Positions 246 to 59,817 of a DNA stretch of 64,000 bases are shown here, piece by piece. The stretch covers positions 2,356,001 through 2,420,000 of the forward strand of contig NC_065574.1 in assembly GCF_937616625.2 (NCBI RefSeq), given 5' to 3'. The notes beneath the pieces are model-generated. The model did not search any database and was not told where the DNA came from. It was given only the letters and a program-made list of their open reading frames with translations. Position numbers and translations under genes: made by a program. The DNA comes from Mercurialis annua. Taxonomy: Eukaryota; Streptophyta; Magnoliopsida; Malpighiales; Euphorbiaceae. Within the stretch, counting starts at the first letter, position 1. Every line of letters begins with the position of its first letter.

Positions 246-3200
246 GCTCTGAGGTTGATAAAGTATGCAGTGGGAAAGTCCGGTGTAGAGTTCAGGAGGG
301 AAATGCAAAGACATTCTACTGCAGTACGGCAGTTATTTCATTATAGAGGTCAGGCGGATCCTTTGAAGGGTGATGCTCTTAATAAGGCTGTGAGGGACAC
401 AGCCCATGAGACTATCTCTGCTATTTTCTCGGAGGAGAATAAGGCAGCCCCTGCAGATGATCTTAACAAAAGGATACAAGGATTTGGTAATACAAATTAT
501 GAAATGCCGACAGAGGATAGGAAATCGTTTCTTAGTGAGGTAGTTGGTATTGGAAGTGCTTCTATTAAGCAGGGCATTAGTAGCTTTACGCAAGGCCATT
601 CACTAAAGAAGAATGACAATGGAGGCTACAAGGGTCCTACTCTTCGAAGGTCCTTGACCATAGAAAATGACAACTCAGATAGATATGAACCAGTTCAGTT
701 ACATAATGAAACTCAGGGTACTTATGGAGTTCCAAAGAGTGGGACTACTAGTGGACCTTGGGGCCAGGAAACTAGGGTATTGAGTGCAGGGACGAAAAAT
801 GAGGAGTCTAATTCAAGTTACACGCAGAGTAAGACTCGTGAGGAGAGATTGTTGGAGACTATTGTAACACCTGGCGGTGTACGTCTGCAACCCACCCGTG
901 ACGCTATTCAAGTTTTTCTAGCAGAAGCAGTAAAGCTAGATGCATTGGTCTTGAGTCGAGCCCTTGAATCTAAGCTCCAATCTCCTATGTGGCAGGCATG
1001 ATCTTTATGCTTTCTTGTAATGAATACTTTTATTATCTCAAATTTATACCCTCCATTGCAAAAAGGACATTCTGCAGAGCATTTCATATTAGTTATGAGT
1101 TTTATTGATGTCATATTGCTGGATATTTTGGTACAGTGTTTTATCACAATATATATTATGGGGAAAAAGAGAGAAATTTAGGTTCTAAGTTCTTATGCTT
1201 ATGGAGTGGATTTATTTTTAATGTGTTTCTGGTGGTTATTGTTTTCAGGTTCGTGTCAAAGCTCTGTGTGTGCTTGAGTCTATCCTGAGGAAAAAGGATG
1301 ATGATCATTTTGCAATTATTGCTTCATATTTCATTGAAAATAACAATACTGTAATTAAATGCTCTGAGTCTCCTCAATCTTCTCTCAGAGAAAAATCTAT
1401 GAAGGTATGCACTTTGTCATTAGGTTCTGCTTTTCCTTTGCTTATTTCTTTGCCCCTTCTTTCCCCACAGGGAAAAATTAGGGGAAACTGTGATTATTCA
1501 TAGATTTGATAAAATATTATCATGACACAGGTTCCATTAGATGCTAGGTTTTCATTCTAACTTTTGTAGAGAAGTAAGATATTTGATTGCTAAACATTAG
1601 ATCATGGAAGAGCAATTGCTGCCTTGAAATTGTAATTTTTAGCCTCTTACAATTATTTTTTTAGATCACAATGGTGCTTCTTTTTTAGAAGAACATCTTA
1701 CTGATCTTTTGTTACTTCATAGTTCTTATGGTATTTTACTATTGGTTAATAATCCTTTTAGATTTCATTTCAATCATTGGATATGAAATATCTGATGATT
1801 TTTTTTGTTCTGGTGATTTTCTTTTCTGCTTTGCTCCTCCGCAAATCATTAATTTTATTGTAGGCCGAGTATGATCTTATATATTGGAGAATCTGAAATG
1901 CTGATGTTAGATCACATAGGGGCAAGATATATGCAATGGCTTAGTATGTGTTTCCTTTGATGAACAGGTGTTGAGTCTCTTAGGTGGCGAACAGGCAGGG
2001 GGCTTGACTAGCAAGTCAGTAAAGGCTGAGACGCCTCCCGTGCAGATGCCTGACTTAATAGACACTGGAGATGCAAATGATTTTTTCGGAACAGATGATC
2101 CTACAATGAGGCCAAGTGACCAGGCAGGAAATCTGACGGCACCTACAACGAGTCCGTTAATAGATGATCTATTTGGAGATGGTTATGGTCCTGGTGTAAG
2201 CTCGAGCGAGCAGAAAAGTGAGGATGATCCATTTGCAGACGTCTCATTTCACCCCAGCGAGAGTAAAGAACATCGAGATGATCTCTTTTCTGGGATGACT
2301 TTTGATGGTAAACAGGATACAAGTGATAATCATCTGTCAACAATAAAAAATGCACAAGAGCCGTTTGATATTTTTGGGTCAATTTCCGAACTTCCATTGG
2401 AGCAAGAAAATCATAAAACAGATGTTAATAATTTAATGGCTGGAATGTCCATAAATGAAAATGTCCTAAAGGAAAAGCTCCCGGAAATTGCTTCTGGGGT
2501 TCTTCCAGAAAATATCTTTTCAGTGCCGACTAATCTTTCTGGACATCAGCTACCTAATGATGCTTTAACTAGCATACTTGGTTCACAAGTGTCTGGGATG
2601 AATGTGAATCCAGTGTTTCCTTCTGGTAGTATGCCATACAATGTACCTCCGGGCCTTATGTTAAACCCAGCTTTTCATACTCAGCCAATAAATTACGGTG
2701 CCATGGGGAATTTTCTTGCTCAACAGCAATTTCTGGCTACAATGTCCAACTTTCAACATTTAAGTACCCTCAATGCGCAAAACTCTGGAGTTGGTCATGC
2801 TGTTGGCACTAATGGAGGTGAATATTCGTCGGCTCTTCCTGATATTTTCCAACCAAGTTATCCAAATCAAGCTCCTGCTTCTACTGTGAACAATTCTAAG
2901 AAAGAAGATACCCGTGCATTTGATTTTATCTCGGTAAGTTCTGAGTTCCTGCAATATTCGGTGACTTTTGTTATATATATATATATATGAAAGTTTTGCT
3001 TCTCATATAAGACTATTATGCTCGCCATCCTTTTGTTGGATAACGTATTGATAGATCCAGTACAAAAGTTGAATGGGTAGGGAGTTGTATTGGATCTTGA
3101 TATCAAATTATGTAGGTTGACAAACACTGGATGGTGGGATCCATGATTAGTAAATTACACTCGCCCTGGTGTGTAGCTAAAGAATATATGTCCTAGTGAT

Positions 3201-12803: not shown

Positions 12804-13187
12804 GGGCTTAATTACTTAAAAACCACTCACCTTGAACTTTTTTTTCGTTTATACCCTGACCTAGGAAAAAATTCATTTATACCCTGACGTATATATTTAT
12901 GTTTCACCTTTACCCCGAGGCACTAAATTAACCTCTTTTCATTAAAAAAAAGTTTAAAATAGTTCTTCATTTTTAACCTAAGCTAATTAGAGTTTAATTA
13001 GAATTAAATTTTTCTTTAAATGAAAGACTATTTTAAGCTTTTTTTTAAAATAAAAAGAGGTTAATTTAGTGACTTGGGGTAGAGGTGAAACATAAACACA
13101 TACGTCAGGGTATAAATGAACTTTTTTCTAGGTCAGGGTATAAACGAAAAAAATATTCAAGGTGGGTGGTTTTTAAGTAATTAAGCC
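12804..13187. mobile_element. Mutator-like foldback MITE with 9-bp target duplication
   Basis: The two halves are long inverted repeats. The left end GGGCTTAATTACTTAAAAAC matches the reverse complement of the right end (...GTTTTTAAGTAATTAAGCC, ending at 13187). It is flanked by an exact 9-bp direct repeat ATTTTCAAA (12795-12803 and 13188-13196). The arms contain repeated TATACCCTGAC units. A 9-bp duplication is typical of Mutator-like elements. No coding capacity. Confidence 0.85.
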
Positions 13188-23156: not shown

Positions 23157-23494
23157 GGCTTAATACATAGTTTGACCTCTGAACTTATACCATTTTACCC
23201 ATCTAACCTCTAAACTTAACGTCTCACCTATCGAACCTCTGAACTTGTTAAATAATCCGATTTAACCCCTAAACTTAATAAATACGTAAATATTGAACCC
23301 CTCCGTGCCACCTGTCACTTGAAACATTCTAGAAGAAATTGTGTACGGAGGGGTTCAATGTTTACGTTTTTATCAAGTTTAGGGGTCAAATCGGATTATT
23401 TGACAAGTTCAGAGGTTCGATAGAGGAGACGTTATGTTTAGGGGTTAAATGGGTAAAAGGGTACAAGTTCAGGGGTCAAACTATGTATTCAGCC
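23157..23494. mobile_element. Mutator-like foldback MITE with 10-bp target duplication
   Basis: Left arm begins GGCTTAATACATAGTTTGAC; the right arm ends ...GTCAAACTATGTATTCAGCC. Exact 10-bp direct repeats GATAATATTC flank it (23147-23156, 23495-23504). Each arm contains several repeats of a unit like CCTCTGAACTTA / CCCCTAAACTTA. An apparent 74-codon frame at 23339-23563 is a by-product of the arm repeats. Confidence 0.88.
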
Positions 23495-24021
23495 GATAAT
23501 ATTCTGATAAGATCGTGGGATGAAATACTCCCACAAACGCCAACAATCCTCTTTCTTCAATAATAAAAAAAATTAAAATATTTTTTTTTGATAAATTATT
23601 TGTACTAAAAGTTAATTATCATTATTTTTATGGATTTACATATGAATTACTGCATCCCTTCTATTTCAAAAATTAAGTATAATTTCGCAATTTTTATGTT
23701 ATATATAACTGAAATCTTTTTATATTATAGAAAACTAAAATGTGAGGATACCTAGAAACTTTTTGAAAGTTTATAGCTCAAACGGTAATTTGGACCTAAT
23801 TTTTTTAGAATAACAGAAATAAACCCTTGTATTAATTCAACGGCACGAGGTTTGGAATTCTGAAGTGAAAGTGAAAAATATAATCAACATTGCTTTCCAA
23901 ATGATAAAATTAACTTTTTACTCGTTCATAAAATTAAAATAACTTCTTTCTGAATAATTCAACATTGACTTCTTTAGAATTAATTAGGTACCATATGCAA
24001 AATAGTTTGCTGATTCAACCT

Positions 24022-24290
24022 TGAACAAATTAGAGAGAAAACCTTTTCTTTATTAATAACAAAATAACCGTTTTTGTTACAGAAATAAGAGAATCATCTG
24101 AGTTCTTATATAGGAACTACATGATCTCACTAATCCGAATCTACAATCAATCACAGGGAACAAACTCCCTTGTAACAGATTTTAACAGAAAACAAAATAA
24201 CTGCTATGAACCTAAGTATGCAATTCACATGATTCTGACAGCTGGAGTTGCTGAGCTGGAATTGCTGAGCTGGAATGACAAGTCATATTA
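24022..24290 (-). repeat. 3' LTR of the copia element (269 bp)
   Basis: Shares almost all positions with 28817-29085. On the minus strand it starts TAATATGACTTGTCATTCC and ends AATTTGTTCA. A TATA-like CTATATAAG lies at about 24106-24114. Confidence 0.93.
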
Positions 24291-24297
24291 CGCCCCC

Positions 24298-27200
24298 TCA
24301 AGCTGGAGCATAAAGATCAAGAATGCTCAGCTTGGAAATTGCTGTGGAAAATGCAGTAGGAGCTAGAGACTTAGTAAAGCAATCTGCTACTTGATTTTCT
24401 GTAGAGATTGGCAGCAGATGAATAAGATTGGATTGCAGCTTTTCCCTAACCACATGACAATCAATCTCTATGTGCTTTGTCCTCTCATGAAACACAGGAT
24501 TCTTAGCTAATTGAATTGCAGAGTTACTGTCACAATAAAGCTGGAATGGTAGAGAAACACACTGCTGTAGATCATGAAGCAAGTATGCAAACCATTGCAA
24601 TTCACATGTAAGAGAAGCTAGGGCCCTGTACTCTGCCTCTGAGCTTGACCTGGATACTGTGGTCTGTTTCTTGGATTTCCAGGAAACTAAAGAATCACCA
24701 ATGAAAACACAGTATCCAGAAACTGACTTTCTAGAATCAGGACAAGTTGCCCAGTCTGCATCAGAAAAAGCTGTGACTTTGAATTCTGGCTTTGAACTGA
24801 AGAATAGACCTTGACCAGGAGATTGTTTCAAGTATCTCAAAACTCTATGAGCTGCTTGAAGATGGTTGACAGTAGGGCAGTCTAAGAATTGTGACAACTG
24901 CTGAATAGAGAATGACAAGTCAGGTCTAGTATTACATAAATACAGAAGTTTACCTATCAACTTTCTGTATTCTGAATTGTCTTCTAGCAAAGCAGAATCA
25001 TTCTTGTGTAACCTCTGAGCTGCAACAAGAGGAGTAGAGACAGATTTTGAATCAAGGAAACCAGTATCCTTCAAGAGATCCAAAGTGTATTTTCTTTGTG
25101 ATAAATTGATGCCTGCAGCTGATCTGGCAACCTCAAGACCTAAGAAATATTTCAATTTTCCTAGATCCTTGATGCTGAAAGCTGAATGGAGATACTGTTT
25201 TATGTTTGTGATTTCAGTAAGAGAATCACTAGCCAATATAACATCATCTACATAGATTAAAAGAGCTATGAAATGATTATCAGAAGATTTGATCAAGAGA
25301 GAAGGATCAGACTCAGCTTGATGAAAACCTTTGGCTAATAATGCAGAAGTAAGCTTTGCATTCCACTGTCTACTTGCTTGTTTGAGTCCATAAAGGAACT
25401 TCTGCAATTTACAAACTTTGCCAGATGATGAACAATTGAAACCAGGAGGGAGTTGCATATAAACCTCTTCACACAAATCACCATGTAAGAAGGCATTATT
25501 GATGTCTAATTGGTGTAAAAACCAATTATGTTTTGCAGCTAAACTCAATAACACCCTGATAGTGGTCATTTTTGCAACTGGGGAAAATGTGTATTGATAG
25601 TCTACTCCTTCAGTCTGTGTATATCCCTTTGCTACCAACCTGGCTTTATGCCTTTCTATGGTTCCATCTGCCCTGTACTTGATCTTATATACCCATTTGC
25701 AGCCTATTGGTTTCTTGCCAGTTGGTAGATCAGTAATGGACCAAGTGGAATTCTGTTCAAGAGCCTGAATTTCCTTTTGCATAGCATCTTTCTAGCATGT
25801 GTATTTAATTGCTTCATCATATGTATGTGGTTCAACTGAGCTGACAAGATTGAGAGCAAAGTGTTTGTGTGTTTGTGATAGTTTTTGGTAAGAAAGGACT
25901 GTTGAAAGACAGTGTGGACTGGTGTGAGGTTTAGATAAAGATGCTGGGATAGAACAGGTGTAGTCTTTTAAGTGAGCTGGTAAATGAGTGGATCTGTTTG
26001 ATCTCCTTAATGCAGGAAAATCAGATGCAGGGAAGATTGAGGGTGGTGGTGAAGGTGAGGTGGTATTGGTTATTTCTGCACTCCAAGGACTAGAGTGAGA
26101 GCATGCAGAAGGAGAATTTGTGACAATTGGTAAAGGTGATGATGGTGAAGAATGAGTTGGTGTTGACAATAGATCCAGACTTAAGTCTAAGTGAGGATTT
26201 GAAGCATTAGTTGACAGTTAAACTGAATAAGGAAAGACAGTTTCATAAAACTGCACATGCCTGGATATGAAGATTATGTGCTGCTGCAAGTCATATATCA
26301 CATAACCTTTGGTGTTTGGTGGATAACCAAGAAAAACACCTTTAGTGGCTCTTTCATCAAACTTCTGTCTATGAACTTTATTAGTACTAGCAAAGACCAA
26401 ACAACCAAAGACCCTAAGATCAGTGAATTGAGGTAGAATGCCATAAAGTTGCTGATAAGGTGTGTGATTTTGAATGACAGGTGATGGAGTCCTATTATTT
26501 AAATAGACTGCTTGTAAAACACAATAATTCCAAAATTCTAAAGGTAAAGAAGATTGGAACCTGAGTGCCCTGGCCACATTTAGAATATGCTGATGCTTCC
26601 TTTCTACTCTACCATTCTGTTCTGGAGTATATGTGCAACTGGTCTGATGTATGATGCCATGTTTGTGATAAAAATCTTGAAATTTGAACTCAAGACCATT
26701 ATCAGAACGAATGACTTTAACAGACTTAGAAAACTGGGTAGTTGCATATAGAATGAAATTCTGCAAATGCATCCTGGTTTCACTTTTATTTCTCATAAAG
26801 AAAACCCATGTGTATCTTGTATGATCATCTACAATTGTGAGGAAGTATCTGAAATCATTGATGGACTGTATTGACACAGGTCCCCAAATATCAACATGAA
26901 TCAAGTCAAAAACAGAGTTTGAACTTGAACTACTAACTGGAAATGACAGTTTCCTTTGCTTAGCAAAGTGACAAGTATCACAAACTTCTGAAAAATTATC
27001 ATCTATTGTAGAATCTAACTTCTTCAAAAGTTTAAGTCTTAAATTTGACAAATGTCCCATACGAAAATGCCAGAGCTGAGATTGTTTCCTTTTGTTATCA
27101 AGAGATGTTGCTGCATTACATCTCTTCTGTTTGCAATCAGTTGTTGCTAACAGATAAAGCCCTTCTTTCTTTTCAGCCATACCAATCATCCTCCACTTGA

Positions 27201-28746
27201 TCACATCCTGAATGTAACACAGTTCATGATACAAGATTAAGCATATACTTCTATTTTCAGTGAGTTTGCTGGCTGAAATTAGATTAAAATCAAAAACTGG
27301 TACATAAAGTACATCATGCAACACCAAGTCTGCAGATAGTTCAACAGAGCCTATATGAGTTACTGCAATATGCTGTCCATTTGGTAACTTAACACTGACA
27401 TTTGACACAGGTTTGCTGTTTTTGAAGAATTCAAAATTGCACAGAATATGATCTGTAGCACCTGTATCTAGAATCCATGTATTTCTGTAGGTAGATGCAC
27501 TAAAATAACATGAATGAATTGTACCTTCATTTTCCTTGCTTGGTTTAAAGTGTGACACAAGAGAATTAACTTGAGCAACCTCTGAAGTTTTTAACTGACT
27601 GCTTGACTGGATCAAACTCATTATCTTGTTGTACTGTTCAGGAGTAAAGGGAAAAACCTTTCCTGAGGAATTATTATCTGCTGAAAACTGATTATTCTGA
27701 TCATTCACATTGCCTCCTTTCTCACTGAAATTCTGTACAGAAGAATTATCACTTTGAATTTGGTTAGCATAGGAACTTTCAGCTTTCTTCTCTCTCCTGA
27801 ATCTTGATTGGAAGCCTGGAGGATATCCATGCTTCTTATAACAAATGTCAACTGTATGATTATCCATGCCACAGTAAGTGCATATTTTCTGTCTATTGTT
27901 CCATGATCCAGACCAATTTCCTCTTCTAAAACCTCTATTCTGATTCATTCCTCTTCCTCTCACATAACAAACATTTGACTCATACTCATCATTATCATCT
28001 ATATCTGATTCTGCCTTTGCAAGAAAAACATTAGACTCTCCATTATTCTTTCCACTCTCTCCAGAATTCTGCCTTTCATGCTGTATTATCATTGCAAACA
28101 CTTTGTTTATAGGAGGTAAGGGCTCAAGCATCAGAATCTGAGTCCTTACATTAGAGAAATTCTCATTTAATCCCTTTAGAAACTTAATCACTCTATCATT
28201 AGATTGATGTTGCTTAATCACAGTAAGCAATCCACAAGAACACTTTGGATTACAAGTACAAGTAGGTAATGCTCTAATATTCAACAATTCATCCCAAAGA
28301 GACTTCAACATAGTATAATACTCAGTAACAGACTTAGAATTCTGCCTTAAGCTGTAAATTTCTTCCTGAATATCCCCCATTCTATAAGCATCTCCCTGTG
28401 AGAATCTATCCTTAAGATCAATCCAGATTTCTAAAGCAGTATCTAGATTTGATATACTTTCAGCAATTGTGTTGGAAACAGCTCTATATAACCAAGACAT
28501 TACTAATGTATTGCATCTTTCCCACGCATTAAACATATCATCATCTCTATCAGGCATAACAATAGAACCATCAACAAATTTGTATTTGTTTTTAAAAATC
28601 AAAGACATTCGCATAGATTTAAAACAGGAACTGTAATTACTACCATTCAAGACCTTAGTAACAAGATTAAGGGAAGGATTTTCACCAGGATGCACAAAAT
28701 ACGGACTGGAGAGAGATTCCTCTGCTCTAAACATTTGATTCGCCAT
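24298..28746 (-). pseudogene. Copia gag-pol polyprotein, single frame broken by two stop codons
   Basis: One frame of 1482 codons runs 28746 to 24298, interrupted by TAA at 26218-26220 and TAG at 25792-25794 with no frameshift. Domains in order: gag of the UBN2 type (LNGSNYSSCFKSMRMSL), CCHC zinc knuckle (CTYCGMDNHTVDIC), aspartic protease (WILDTGATDHI), integrase zinc motif (H-x-H with CDTCHFAK) and catalytic core (D in HVDIWGP, SDNG, E in NGRVERKH), reverse transcriptase with YVDD, and RNase H (FSDADWA, SSSEAEYRAL). The order integrase before reverse transcriptase defines Ty1/copia. The second stop replaces a position usually occupied by Trp in this family. Without readthrough the element would not make reverse transcriptase itself, but it could be mobilised in trans. 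Confidence 0.93.
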
Positions 28747-28800
28747 TGTTGTAGCTTCGCAAGCTCTGCTATAAGCTTTTAAACTTAGAGACTGGTATAA

Positions 28801-28816
28801 TCCAGCTTTGATACCA
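28801..28816 (-). other. Primer-binding site (initiator tRNA-Met type)
   Basis: TGGTATCAAAGCTGGA on the minus strand, adjacent to the 5' LTR. It differs from the usual TGGTATCAGAGC at one base. Confidence 0.88.
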
Positions 28817-29265
28817 TGAACAAATTAGAGAGAAAACCTTTTCTTTATTAATAACAAAATAACCGTTTTTGTTACAGAAATAAGAGAATCATCTGAGTTC
28901 TTATATAGGAACTAGATGATCTCACTAATCCGAATCTACAATCAATCACAGGGAACAAACTCCCTTGTAACAGATTTTAACAGAAAACAAAATAACTGCT
29001 ATGAACCTAAGCATACAATCCACATGATTCTGACAGCTGGAGTTGCTGAGCTGGAATTGCTGAGCTGGAATGACAAGTCATATTATAGGAACTAGATGAT
29101 CTCACTAATCCGAATCTACAATCAATCACAGGGAACAAACTCCCTTGTAACAGATTTTAACAGAAAACAAAATAACTGTTATGAACCTAAGCATACAATC
29201 CACATGATTCTGACAGCTGGAGTTGCTGAGCTGGAATTGCTGAGCTAGAATGACAAGTCATATTA
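28817..29265 (-). repeat. 5' LTR of the copia element with tandem U3 duplication
   Basis: 28817-29085 is a full 269-bp LTR. 29086-29265 is a second copy of the 180-bp outer part (28906-29085), differing at about two sites. Both copies end in the LTR terminus. The duplicated part lies upstream of the LTR TATA-like sequence. Confidence 0.93.
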
Positions 29266-37654: not shown

Positions 37655-37990
37655 GGCTTAACCCATTTAGAGACCCCTGTACTTTACAACTTTTTTTCCA
37701 TAGGTCCTTATATTTTATTTTTGTATTATCTGGTCCTTTTACTTACCTATTTTCAATTTTCAGGTCCTTTTTGAGTTTTTTCCAGTCTCTCTACTTACAA
37801 TTGTTTTTTTTCCAGTCCCTATACTTACAATCTTTTTTTCCTCCAGTCACACAAAATGACAGGAAAAAACTCAAAAAGGACCTGAAAAATAACAATAAGT
37901 AAGTAGAGGGATCAGATAATACAAAAATGAAGTATAAGGACTTACGAAAAAAAAAGTGTAAAATACAAGGGCCTCTAAATGGATTTGGCC
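37655..37990. mobile_element. Mutator-like foldback MITE with 9-bp target duplication
   Basis: Left GGCTTAACCCATTTAGAGAC and right ...CTCTAAATGGATTTGGCC are inverted. Exact 9-bp flanks AAAACAAAA (37646-37654, 37991-37999). The arms carry repeats of a GGTCCTTNTA / CAGTCCCTATACTTACAA unit. Confidence 0.85.
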
Positions 37991-47679: not shown

Positions 47680-47752
47680 GCGCCCATGGCCTAATGGATA
47701 AGGCGCTTGACTTCTAATCAAGCGATTGTGGGTTCGAGTCCCACTGGGCGTG
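47680..47752 (+). tRNA. trnR-UCU: tRNA-Arg (anticodon TCT)
   Basis: 73 nt. The acceptor stem GCGCCCA pairs with TGGGCGT (one G-U), discriminator G. D arm with CCTAATGGATAAGG, anticodon arm TTGACTTCTAATCAA with TCT at the anticodon, T arm GTGGGTTCGAGTCCCAC. No intron. A CAA trinucleotide upstream and T-runs just downstream fit Pol III transcription. The cloverleaf is intact, so it is probably functional. Confidence 0.96.
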
Positions 47753-47770: not shown

Positions 47771-48778
47771 AAATATTTTTTTCTATATTAAACTCACCTT
47801 CATTCAGTCTAATTACGTGGTTAAATCTGAACCGAGGAATTTGATAAATGAAAATAGGAAATAATGAAAAAACGTGGGATGTTTTAGTGCACCAATTGAA
47901 TAGTACATGTGGCCAATTTCTTTATAAGTCAATTCCTACAAAATATCATTGAGGACACTGACATTAATAAGACAATATAGCATGTCTTCTTCTTATAAAT
48001 TTATTTTATTATTATGAAAATGAAAAGCGCAAAAAATATTCAAGTATTAATTATATATTCAAATGCACAAAATATTACCTATTTTCATATATTTTTGGTA
48101 TTTAATATAAGCTTTTAATTTTGGCATATAAATATATGAACTTTTAAAATTTTACAATAAATGACAACCGACACCCAGTATTTCAAAATCCAGACCGGAC
48201 CGGTATCATTTATTATAAAATTAGAAATTTTATGTTAAATATGCTAAAATTAAAAATTTATATTAAATACCAAAAACATGTGAAAATTGATGATTTTTTA
48301 TGCATTTAAGCCTAAAACTAAAGGTAACACTAAAATCTTACCAATAAACTATACTAAAATTTACTTAACATCATGGTAGAAATGTAGAACAAAGGATCAC
48401 TTTACCCCCTGAACTTAGCACAAAGTATCAAAAACATCCAAATTAGCAAAACGGGATCACTTTTACCCTGAACTTGTAAAAAATGGTACAAAACCCCCCC
48501 TCCCCACTCTCACCAAAGAGAGTGAGATACACTCTCCGGTTTTGATGGTGGTTTCGGTTTTCTAAGGTGGTTTTTGATAAAAAAAATAGTCCTAATTGTT
48601 TTTAAACATTTTAAATTAATACCTAATAATTAAAAAAAATAAAAATTAATCCTTTTAATTTAAAACTTTATATCACAAATTAACCCAGAAATTTCATTAC
48701 ATACAACAAATTAACTCTAAAATTTATATTTTTAACAAAAATAAATTAATTTTTTTTAATTTTTTATAAAAAAAAAAC

Positions 48779-49037
48779 AGACCCGGGGTCTGTTCTTCTT
48801 CCTCAAGAACAGACCCCATGGATCTGTTCTTGAGGAAGAACAGATCCAGGTCTGTTCTTGGAAGAACAAACCTGGATCTGTTCTTCCCAGAACAGACCCT
48901 GGGTCTGTTCTGAAGAACAGACGCCGGCGTCTGTTCTTCAAAGAACAGACTCCGGCGGTCTGTTCTTTGAAGAACAGACCCACGTCTGTTCTTTGAAGAA
49001 CAGACTCCGGCGGTCTGTTCTTCAAAGAACAGACGCC
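48779..49037. repeat. Alternating inverted/direct array of GTCTGTTCT and AGAACAGAC
   Basis: About nine GTCTGTTCT-type and nine AGAACAGAC-type copies alternate. Each orientation recurs about every 25-33 bp, so neighbouring copies can form successive hairpins. Linkers include CCGGCG and CCTGG palindromes. It lies at the middle of the larger foldback. Confidence 0.93.
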
Positions 49038-49306
49038 GGAGCTGCTGCTCAGCTCTTCTTCTTCGGCGAGGAGCTCTTCCTCGCCGGAAATTTTAAAAAA
49101 ACTTGATTTTTTTTTTGAAAAAAAGTTCAAAAAGACCCCTGGATTAATTAGAAGTTAATTATGATTAATTGGTATTTTGGAATCTCACTCTCCAATTTAG
49201 TGCCACATCAGCATTGGGGGGCTTTTTGAACCGGTTTTGCCAAGTTCGGGGTAAAAGTGATCCGGTTTTGCTAATTTGGACGTTTTTGATACTTTGCGCC
49301 AAGTTC

Positions 49307-49327
49307 GGGGGGGGGGGGGGGGGGGGG
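49307..49327 (+). repeat. Poly-G tract (21 G)
   Basis: Uninterrupted run of 21 G in the right arm of the large foldback. Length could be affected by assembly or sequencing error. Confidence 0.9.
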
Positions 49328-49355
49328 TAAAATGATCCTTCGTTCTAGAAATGTA

Positions 49356-53801: not shown

Positions 53802-54217
53802 GGGTTATTAGCCAAATGGTACCCAACCTTTATTCCTTGTATCAAAATGGTACCCAACCTTTAATTTTTATCAAAATGGTACCCAATCTTCTAACGTTTG
53901 TTTCAAAATGGGTTTTTTAATAATTTCCGGCCACTTTTGATGACGTGACAACCGAAAAATTAATTTTTTTATATTTTTACCACATCACATGATAAATAAA
54001 ATTTTATATAATTTAAAAGATTAAAACGAACTTTTGTTTTATATCAATAAAAAAATCAATTTTTCGGTTGCCACGTCATCAAAAGTGGCCGAAAAATATT
54101 AAAAAAATCATTTTGAAACAAACATTAGAAGATTGGGTACCATTTTGATACAAATTATAGGTTGGTATCATTTTGATATAAGGTGTAAAGGTTGGATACC
54201 ATTTTGGCTAATGATCC
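53802..54217. mobile_element. Mutator-like foldback MITE in the ankyrin gene promoter/5' region
   Basis: Ends GGGTTATTAGCCAAATGGTA and, right, ...ATACCATTTTGGCTAATGATCC. Exact 9-bp target duplication GCAATATGA (53793-53801, 54218-54226). Each arm has about three copies of a unit like AAAATGGTACCCAACCTT; deeper in, CACTTTTGATGACGTG pairs with CACGTCATCAAAAGTG. Confidence 0.9.
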
Positions 54218-55024: not shown

Positions 55025-55478
55025 CTAGATAGCACGGAGATTTTCAATCAAAGTTTCACGTCTCGAAACGTGTCGGACACTTATAGACATTTTAGATATA
55101 AAATTTCATTTCTTATATAAGAAATTTCTAAATTAACACTGTTTTACCATCTCCGTGTCAAAGTGCCTCATTTTTCTGTGTACGTGTCTGTGTCCGTCAC
55201 TACAAGAAATTTTGTATTTGGCAACAAATTTTTTTACAGCTAATTTATTTTTGCCGCTAAAAAACATTTTGCAGCATTAATTTCGAAAGTTGCTGCCATT
55301 AGTTAAGTTATAGCAGCATTTTACAGTAAATTTTGTTACCAATTATTTAAAGCAACGTTTTATTAGCAGTAACATGTCACAATTTTTTTTTTGCTATATG
55401 TTAATAATAATAATTTTCCACTACTAGCAACAAAAATATTTGCTGCGAATAGTATTTCTTGTAGTGCGTGCTATCTAG
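55025..55478. mobile_element. hAT-like MITE with 8-bp target duplication, split by a CACTA MITE
   Basis: Perfect 14-bp inverted ends CTAGATAGCACGGA. Exact 8-bp direct flanks TCACCAAG (55017-55024, 55479-55486), the hAT size. Non-coding. A CACTA element sits inside at 55198-55466. Confidence 0.88.
55198..55466. mobile_element. CACTA-type MITE (269 bp), nested
   Basis: Starts CACTACAAGAAA and ends TTTCTTGTAGTG (12-bp perfect inverted ends). Flanked by the 3-bp duplication CGT (55195-55197, 55467-55469). A related segment without it at about 59392-59399 (GTCCGTGC) is an empty site. Confidence 0.92.
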
Positions 55479-55897
55479 TCACCAAGTTACTAACTTTTAC
55501 ATTTCAGGATTAGCTCTAAAAATGTAAATGCAATATTAGATATGGGACAGATGAATGTTCTATAAAATATAAATAAAATAATTTTCATTTACGATTGAAA
55601 TGCTTATTAAATTTCAGAACATAATTGATTGTAAAAAAGTAATTTCTAACCATTAATTTGTTCACTCCTTGAATCATTGATCACATAATAATTAAAAGAT
55701 GCAATACCAACAATGTTTAGAGATAATACAAAGGCAAATTCAAATTCTTTAATATTAGTAAAACCAAGTAGTGTTCAATTAATAAACCAACAATTCAAAT
55801 ACAAATTGTTCAAATACATATAATCCCAAAACAACTAAAATTAAGAACTGATAAAAACAAATTAACATAACGACTTAACATAACGAATTAAAATGTT
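55479..55897. repeat. Duplicate of the phytocyanin 3' flank, copy A
   Basis: Closely similar over about 410 bp to 59405-59817 (for example TTTACATTTCAGGATTAGCTC and GAACATTCATCTGTCCCATA-type segments in both). Similarity ends where copy B reaches the phytocyanin stop codon. Confidence 0.9.
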
Positions 55898-59285: not shown

Positions 59286-59404
59286 ACACGTTTCAGACAT
59301 GAAACTTCATTTTTGACAATAAACTTTAAATTAACACTCTTCCGCCATCTCCGTGTCAAAGTGCCTCGTTTCTCTGTGTACGTGTCTGTGTCCGTGCTAC
59401 CTAG
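59286..59404. mobile_element. 5'-deleted copy of the hAT-like MITE
   Basis: Matches the right part of 55025-55478 without the CACTA insert and lacks the left end. It ends TGTCCGTGCTACCTAG, followed by TCACCAAG as in the other copy. Confidence 0.75.
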
Positions 59405-59817
59405 TCACCAAGTTGCTAACTTTTACATTTCAGGATTAGCTCCAAAAATGTAAATGCAATATCAGAGATGGGGCAGATGAATGTTCTATAAAATATAAAT
59501 AAAATATTTTCATTTATGATTGAAATGCTCATTAAATTTCAGAACAGACTGTTAATTGATTGTAAAAAAGTGATCTCTAAGCATTAATTTGTTCATTCCT
59601 TGAATCATTGATCACATAATAATTAAAAATTGCAATACCAGCAATCTTTAGAGATAATACAAAGGCAAATTCAAATTCTTAAATATTAGTGAAACCAATT
59701 AGTGTTCAATTAATAAACCAACAATTCAAATACAAATTGTTCAAATACATATAATCCCAAAACAACTAAAATTAAGAACTGGTAAAAACAAATTAACATA
59801 ACTAATTAAAATGTTTA
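59405..59817. repeat. Phytocyanin 3' flank, copy B of the duplication
   Basis: Counterpart of 55479-55897; it ends at the phytocyanin stop codon (59815-59817). Confidence 0.9.

Follow-up and report, generated by a model that had tools for sequence, protein, structure and literature searches.

The 64,000-nucleotide stretch of Mercurialis annua DNA analysed here (NC_065574.1, positions 2,356,001 to 2,420,000; henceforth referred to as 'the window') carries a 959-bp foldback element with a GC-rich core made of a chain of small palindromes. We consider it probable that this element is a non-autonomous miniature inverted-repeat transposable element (MITE) of the Mutator-like element (MULE) type, centred on a palindromic minisatellite that is self-generating, gains and loses units and has replaceable seed palindromes. 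The element moves as a unit, with 10-bp target-site duplications of differing sequence, and is a member of a large family. Between family copies the core varies like a MINISATELLITE: whole palindromic units of ~27 bp have been gained or lost, against a divergence of ~1% in the arms. Arrays of one kind, in one position within the element, have been made from more than one palindrome, and the hairpin architecture persists while the stem sequence changes or is replaced.

The core of the window copy is an array of alternating half-sites

An earlier note on this DNA, made from the letters alone, had described about nine forward and nine reverse copies alternating at a regular spacing in a GC-rich island within a 959-bp foldback. 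This description proved accurate: the foldback has the exact limits given in Table 1, with a 10-bp duplication on both sides, and a scan of positions 48773-49038 (at most 1 mismatch) found 19 half-sites, 9 forward and 10 reverse, in strict alternation and with a forward-to-forward spacing of 26-34 bp, the first reverse half-site being an edge copy, AAAAACAGAC. Since dinucleotide shuffling of the core left 0.09 half-sites on average and never more than 2 (2000 shuffles), chance is excluded as the source of the array. The core lies between two AT-rich stretches. Its array has a GC content of 0.51 and the next 49 bp one of 0.63; the 1-kb flanks have 0.26 and 0.21, and the whole window 0.31. We agree with the earlier note that such order goes beyond a plain MITE, and read it as that of a palindromic minisatellite inside a MULE-type MITE.

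The core is predicted to fold far better than its shuffles (z-score -21.5 as RNA, n=100), and so is the whole element as DNA (z -27.7, n=20). The chain of small hairpins proposed from the letters makes up most of this structure, with pairs spanning at most 60 bases supplying 93% of the folding energy, but it is not the only form, and the best fold combines small hairpins with units nested into larger hairpins. The proposal that both strands are open over long stretches also needs correction: two minus-strand frames are open across the core (open reading frames of 122 and 132 amino acids), but all three plus-strand frames contain 1-2 stops. As the longest open run is equalled in 35% of 500 shuffles of the core and the plus strand has these stops, the open frames are due to composition. 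The two longest frames of the core have no Pfam match, and we rejected a coding role for the open frames on the shuffles, the plus-strand stops, Pfam and the protein searches described below. Patterns of the heat-shock element, auxin-response, W-box and G-box types did not occur in the core.

The element belongs to a large family with the structure of MULE-type MITEs

The target-site duplications of MULEs are 9-11 bp long and those of hAT elements 8 bp. For the window copy by itself, an 8-bp duplication plus one extra terminal base is a possible alternative; 10 bp is the length that matches the family. We searched a genome assembly of 451 Mb in 55 contigs, from which loci taken for comparison with the window copy carry L-numbers. 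The first genome search, in which 40 of 1602 candidates were scored, yielded 30 loci, and later searches brought the number of distinct copies examined to 71. Perfect 10-bp duplications flank 22/28, 8/12, 10/13 and 13/18 further distinct copies, in total 53 of 71; the last set represents the new copies among 20 elements chosen by their terminal inverted repeats (TIRs), of which 15 have a perfect duplication. The 23 duplications tallied in the first copy set are 86% A+T. The 10-bp duplications of the family do not fit a hAT MITE.

The other traits of MULE-MITEs are likewise found here. The TIRs, which in the window element start GAACAAAGGATC/GAACGAAGGATC, are long, and arms of ~115 bp with 86-93% complementarity were found in 12 of 13 further copies, the exception being L082, where the inverted arm is lacking on one side. 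The left TIR of the window copy holds a stretch repeated ~60 bp apart, at 48394 and 48454. The element is non-coding and present in many copies, the exact TIR pattern occurring 322 times forward and 298 times in reverse in the 451 Mb (620 TIR ends), compared with 0 for a reversed-pattern control. The duplication length and the long TIRs place the element with the Mutator-like elements, and it is best read as a Mutator-type MITE, an assignment made by structure and not via a matching transposase.

Table 1. Coordinates of the features discussed in the text, in window positions.
Feature	Position	Strand	Basis or remark
Complete element, 959 bp, best read as a non-autonomous MULE-type MITE	48387..49345		ends and target-site duplication
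Left target-site duplication, TAGAAATGTA, 10 bp	48377..48386		10-mer occurs only twice in the window
Right target-site duplication, TAGAAATGTA, 10 bp	49346..49355		perfect match to the left
Left TIR	48387..48500	+	arms 86% complementary over 96 bp
AT-rich left arm	48570..48772		GC 0.12 across 48570-48777
Palindromic minisatellite, 19 alternating half-sites GTCTGTTCTT/AAGAACAGAC, 9 forward-reverse units	48773..49034		half-site scan
First 3' GC-rich hairpin, GAGCTG..CAGCTC	49039..49055		longer version in several relatives
Second 3' GC-rich hairpin, GGCGAGGA..TCCTCGCC	49064..49086
Right TIR	49217..49345	-	21-G run at 49307-49327
Copia retrotransposon, AP2 gene, ankyrin/PGG gene, F-box gene	within window		context of a plant nuclear genome

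Some individual copies have features of their own. The G run in the right TIR counts 21 here, 15 in L022 and at most 6 in the 24 other copies measured, and is either a homopolymer expansion or an assembly matter. In L046, positions 915-2869 (reverse complement of the locus) hold two tandem element copies, each preceded by GTAACAAAAT, the first of them truncated inside its array. L101 and L102 lie 14 kb apart with equal length and equal core measurements, apparently through local duplication; they seem to be one duplicated copy and are counted as two. The array counts below exclude L030 (the L020 copy), L019 (truncated and overlapping L007) and L029 (a right side without array); L019 was reused as L019e1 in the comparisons of arm pairs with stem substitutions and of loop flips. 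The limits of L006, L010 and L029 were set by hand, as no end pair was found.

Arrays grow by direct tandem duplication of units

The earlier note had named a lack of the core in other copies as part of what would refute its observation. Other family copies do have cores, and the 27 copies of the first genome search contain 4-17 forward-reverse units; a second set includes copies with 1-3 units and perfect target-site duplications (for example L040, L041, L033 and L035). The outermost loops are widely shared. At the start of the array CCGGG is found in 24/27 copies, CCGGG-CTTCCTC in 23/27 and these two followed by CCCATGG-GAGG in 16/27, and at its end CA is found in 24/27 and TCCGGCG-CA in 11/27; inward of these loops the copies soon diverge. 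The 15 pairs with the most similar left arms (divergence 0.8-1.3%) are 0-6 units apart, and the two copies in L046 have different arrays next to left arms that are identical at 387 of 390 positions.

Tandem blocks in the 27 copies comprise 16 of a single unit and 4 of two units, and in L084 one unit is repeated many times. Within single copies, repetition of a run of three neighbouring loops was counted 35 times in direct orientation (shuffled mean 1.8) and 0 times inverted, and that of a run of two 63 times direct and once inverted; no inverted block of three or more loops was found in any of the 27 copies. Because loop runs recur directly and not inverted, we conclude that arrays grow by direct tandem duplication, one or two units at a time. 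The unit itself is palindromic, so a tandem array of it alternates half-sites automatically, and repeated inverted duplication is unnecessary for the observed order.

Hairpin architecture persists while stem sequences are exchanged

To sample without regard to similarity with the window copy, we selected elements by their ends alone: 100 listed TIR places, all on one contig, gave 35 forward/reverse pairs, and the first 20 of these were used. All 20 elements contain a GC-rich core (0.48-0.63, compared with 0.26-0.35 elsewhere in the element), and all 20 cores fold strongly, with z from -8.5 to -39.3 (rough values, at 15 shuffles each) and 89-100% of the energy in pairs within 60 bases. For comparison, positions 131-380 in the arm have a z of -3.7 or weaker in 16/20 elements; in the remaining four (z -6.1 to -9.4) the core starts inside this stretch. 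Control stretches of the window, 30 in number and GC-rich though below the cores (GC 0.40-0.50), gave a median z of 0.2 and a lowest value of -2.5. The window half-site (at most 2 mismatches) is present at least 5 times in 9 of the 20 elements and 0-3 times in the other 11.

When the 20 elements and the window copy were compared at >60 bits, the arms formed one group and the cores five: the GTCTGTTCTT type (5 elements and the window copy), the TTCGTCTCTCA type (9), the TGCTCGTCT type (2), the GATGAACAGACC/TCACTTCC type (3) and L100 alone. As the GATGAACAGACC stem is close to AAGAACAGAC and L100 contains 7 window half-sites, only three stem types can firmly be counted as clearly different. Several elements with 0-3 window half-sites have alternating half-sites with another stem (CGTCTCTCA, GCTCGTCT); half-sites of the TTCGTCTCTCA and TGCTCGTCT types alternate in L093, L094, L095, L096, L098 and L109, more loosely in L099, and are few in L101, L106 and L108. 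Tandem Repeats Finder reported periods of 24 in L094, 25 in L093, 27 in L098 and 20 in L099; the window type and L104 have unit periods of 26 and 29. Two palindrome arrays follow one another within the element in L031 (287-1475) and in L032 (866-2070), the ATGAACAGAC type and then a GAGGAGC..GCTCCTC type. In both loci the stems are altered on both sides.

Such constancy of form raises the possibility, which we hold only tentatively, that the hairpin array is selected in source elements, either for a role in transposition (as a cruciform or protein platform, or through copy-favouring fork stalling) or as RNA. The earlier note, too, had suggested selection for structure or protein binding. Retention of a strongly folding GC-rich core by 20/20 elements, although 11 of them have 0-3 window half-sites, argues for this, as do the recurrence of 24-29-bp unit periods in different stem types (20 in L099) and the two-sided stem changes of L031 and L032. 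It is possible in the same tentative degree that the central chain of ~20-29-bp palindromes would constitute a hairpin-array organ of this MULE-MITE clade, required or strongly favoured for the success of the element, with selection acting on structure only while whole stems are exchanged. Against selection, stem substitutions are mostly uncompensated and run at about the rate of the arms (0.034 versus 0.033; 0.020 without one inherited change, at sites with at most 2 mismatches and thus biased low), and units fall to 1-3 in copies with perfect target-site duplications. These stem data do not settle the matter, since no constraint is expected on inserted copies, which need not be functional, so that neutral-looking stem drift fails to separate selection from self-generation.

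Loop orientation and the origin of the array

Direct duplication alone would keep loops in a single orientation, yet they are found both ways. We distinguished subfamilies A, B and C (35, 8 and 6 copies), in each of which a subfamily-specific asymmetric loop is present in both orientations: CTTCAAAG/CTTTGAAG 43/35 times in A, CTTGAGAG/CTCTCAAG 17/30 times in B and CTTCAGAG/CTCTGAAG 10/19 times in C, with both orientations in one and the same copy in 14, 8 and 4 copies, respectively. Exact reverse-complement loop pairs total 21 over the subfamilies, whereas shuffled letters yielded no more than 1 per class. Neighbouring loops are opposite rather than same in a ratio of 32:18 (A), 25:10 (B) and 12:8 (C), with P values of 0.10, 0.012 and 0.12 that treat related copies as if independent. 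When neighbouring units of the window copy are aligned, 6 of 8 fit better inverted than direct (the second register gives 3 inverted, 1 direct and 3 ties), and 4 adjacent loops of this copy are exactly inverted (P 8e-5 versus independent loops, 0.19 versus random flips).

The earlier note had suggested that the array arose by repeated inverted duplication, a course that would correspond to hairpin-primed copying. The inverted matches between window neighbours, the loops found both ways in three subfamilies and the excess of opposite neighbours would agree with it, but the complete lack of inverted three-loop runs beside 35 direct ones, and the P value of 0.19 of the window copy alone under a random-flip null, make it very improbable; for recent growth it is largely refuted, although single loops do occur in flipped form. 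We regard loop flipping as likely, but as old or rare, because compensated stem changes are rare and flips are not in excess (see below).

For the self-generating minisatellite we propose the following course. Transposase would be supplied in trans by a MULE of the same genome, in which the MULE transposase domain PF10551 has at least 150 matches (150 of 1158 candidates scored). The 31 matches listed on contig C1 include none that is flanked on both sides by listed TIR matches within 15 kb (100 TIR places listed, all on C1, up to 71.3 Mb). The palindromes would stall the polymerase and cause slippage during replication, or during gap repair at transposition, and such stalling and slippage would duplicate or delete units, while template switching might occasionally flip a loop. 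Any palindrome in the GC-rich centre could seed the next array, and arrays would in this way be replaced over time.

Several results weigh against this reading. Among the transposase matches listed, none could be assigned to an autonomous element with these TIRs. Not every core is regular: the GC-rich segments of L092 and L107 gave no tandem array in Tandem Repeats Finder. The excess of opposite neighbours, which is significant by itself in one subfamily only, is not predicted by direct duplication alone. Copying of one arm from the other by template switching predicts compensated stem changes, and their rarity counts against it: 1 of 158 changes was compensated in one hairpin register, where permutation gave a mean of 4.4, and 18 of 153 in the second, where it gave 5.3; these 18 represent a single inherited change (33 copies, with L038 and L039 separate and L031, L032, L034, L042 and L019 excluded). 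Loop flips in identical neighbourhoods were seen in 3 of 30 same-length pairs with at least 2 differences, which is not above the expectation from the loop vocabulary. The duplication mechanism, finally, is read from end products, no new event having been observed.

Homogenisation of arms was not seen generally across the copies. Compensated changes had been considered as a sign of template switching on the strength of two cases in the window copy (P 0.05 with order permuted, 0.0006 with random change), and this sign failed family-wide.

We consider it very improbable that the core is a captured host sequence, as in a Pack-MULE and as the earlier note had also proposed. Its GC content, well above that of its flanks and of the window, would suit such an origin, but two protein searches at E up to 10 returned no relative from a database that does return plant proteins, and a search with the core (40 of 314 candidates scored) gave 13 further core matches, all 13 adjoining the left arm of the family and 12 having TIRs on both sides; no capture from host genes was found in these searches. 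Searches of plasmids, viral contigs and bacterial and archaeal genomes gave no result. The chance of an assembly artefact, to which the 21-G run alone might point, is extremely small, as the copies have their own ordered arrays and shared ends and most have intact target-site duplications.

Setting of the element in the window

The ankyrin protein of the window has plant proteins as its relatives in a protein search. A tRNA-Arg (TCT) gene at 47680-47752 lies near the 959-bp element, and an imperfect palindrome of 247 bp (75%, 48061-48307) stands directly to its left. The copia element (24018-29265) has ends, 24018-24290 and 28813-29085, of 98% identity and contains a 180-bp tandem duplication at 28904-29265. 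A direct repeat of ~420 bp joins 55464-55881 with 59390-59812 (92.7% identity). Further foldbacks with 8- to 10-bp terminal direct repeats are found at 12805-13187, 23157-23494, 37655-37990 and 53802-54217; in the first the repeat is exact over 8 bp with 1 mismatch over 10, and the arms of the other three contain tandem units of ~28-30 bp.

Significance and comparison with known systems

Palindromic repeats are thought to be unstable, and the origin of long hairpins and hairpin arrays is a standing question. Hairpin arrays may also give rise to small RNAs and new satellites. The present family offers many insertions, each with its own version of the array, in which unit number, order and loop orientation are legible as a minisatellite code, and its sister subfamilies reached the same architecture from other sequences. 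If the central chain is a hairpin-array organ, one palindromic minisatellite would supplant another and leave the architecture intact.

The available part of PMC4486113 gives 9 bp as the typical target-site duplication of MULE-MITEs, and describes MuTAnT of Medicago, with a 9-bp duplication, and FARE1, a foldback group now placed in the MULEs. MuTAnT and the FARE elements of Arabidopsis resemble the present family in being non-autonomous foldbacks with long TIRs and a similar duplication length. Unlike here, where the duplications are 10 bp, the hairpin of MuTAnT comes from the TIRs, and that text mentions no internal array of small palindromes. Short repeats with spacers inside MITEs, some containing short palindromes, are likewise known as the SIRCs of Arabidopsis, which according to the portions of PMC10342631 at hand consist of 2-8 short direct repeats of 10-29 bp with spacers, are most enriched in MITEs, and have palindromes with 4-9 bp arms in 211 cases and mostly none or 3-bp ones otherwise. 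The arrays described here do not follow the SIRC definition of 2-8 direct repeats with diverse spacers; their units number as many as 17 and are palindromes with 10-bp arms, their loops come from a small shared vocabulary, and the element family has more than one stem type.

MITEs and foldbacks that carry tandem repeats include Xmix/Xstir and miDNA4 of Xenopus, pearl/CvA of bivalves and the central repeats of DINE (PMC9659126, PMC6947457). These, like Tetris of Drosophila, share with the present family a tandem array in a mobile element that is a source of new repeats. The accessible sections of the two papers mention neither palindromic hairpin arrays nor palindrome exchange for the former (the terms palindrom and hairpin are absent from both), and Tetris has repeats of ~220 bp inside its TIRs, whereas the array here is central. 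The material available, which included the plant MITE review PMC12595863 and covered subscription journals thinly, contained no account of a MITE family whose palindromic arrays are exchangeable, nor any occurrence of the literal TIR and unit strings. This suggests that, while transposons with tandem repeats are already known, palindromic arrays exchanged within one element family are unreported in the literature examined.

Template switching at short inverted repeats is known to create hairpins (PMC8604942, PMC8794818, as far as available) and in yeast flips loops between arms of >9 bp (PMC8604942). Those cases concern single hairpins, and homogenisation of arms is not general in the present family; its 10-bp arms and loops of mostly 0-7 bp are of the same kind. 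The family lets the rates of duplication, deletion and flipping be measured and selection for structure be compared with self-generation, and is a natural test case for the birth and spread of palindromic DNA.
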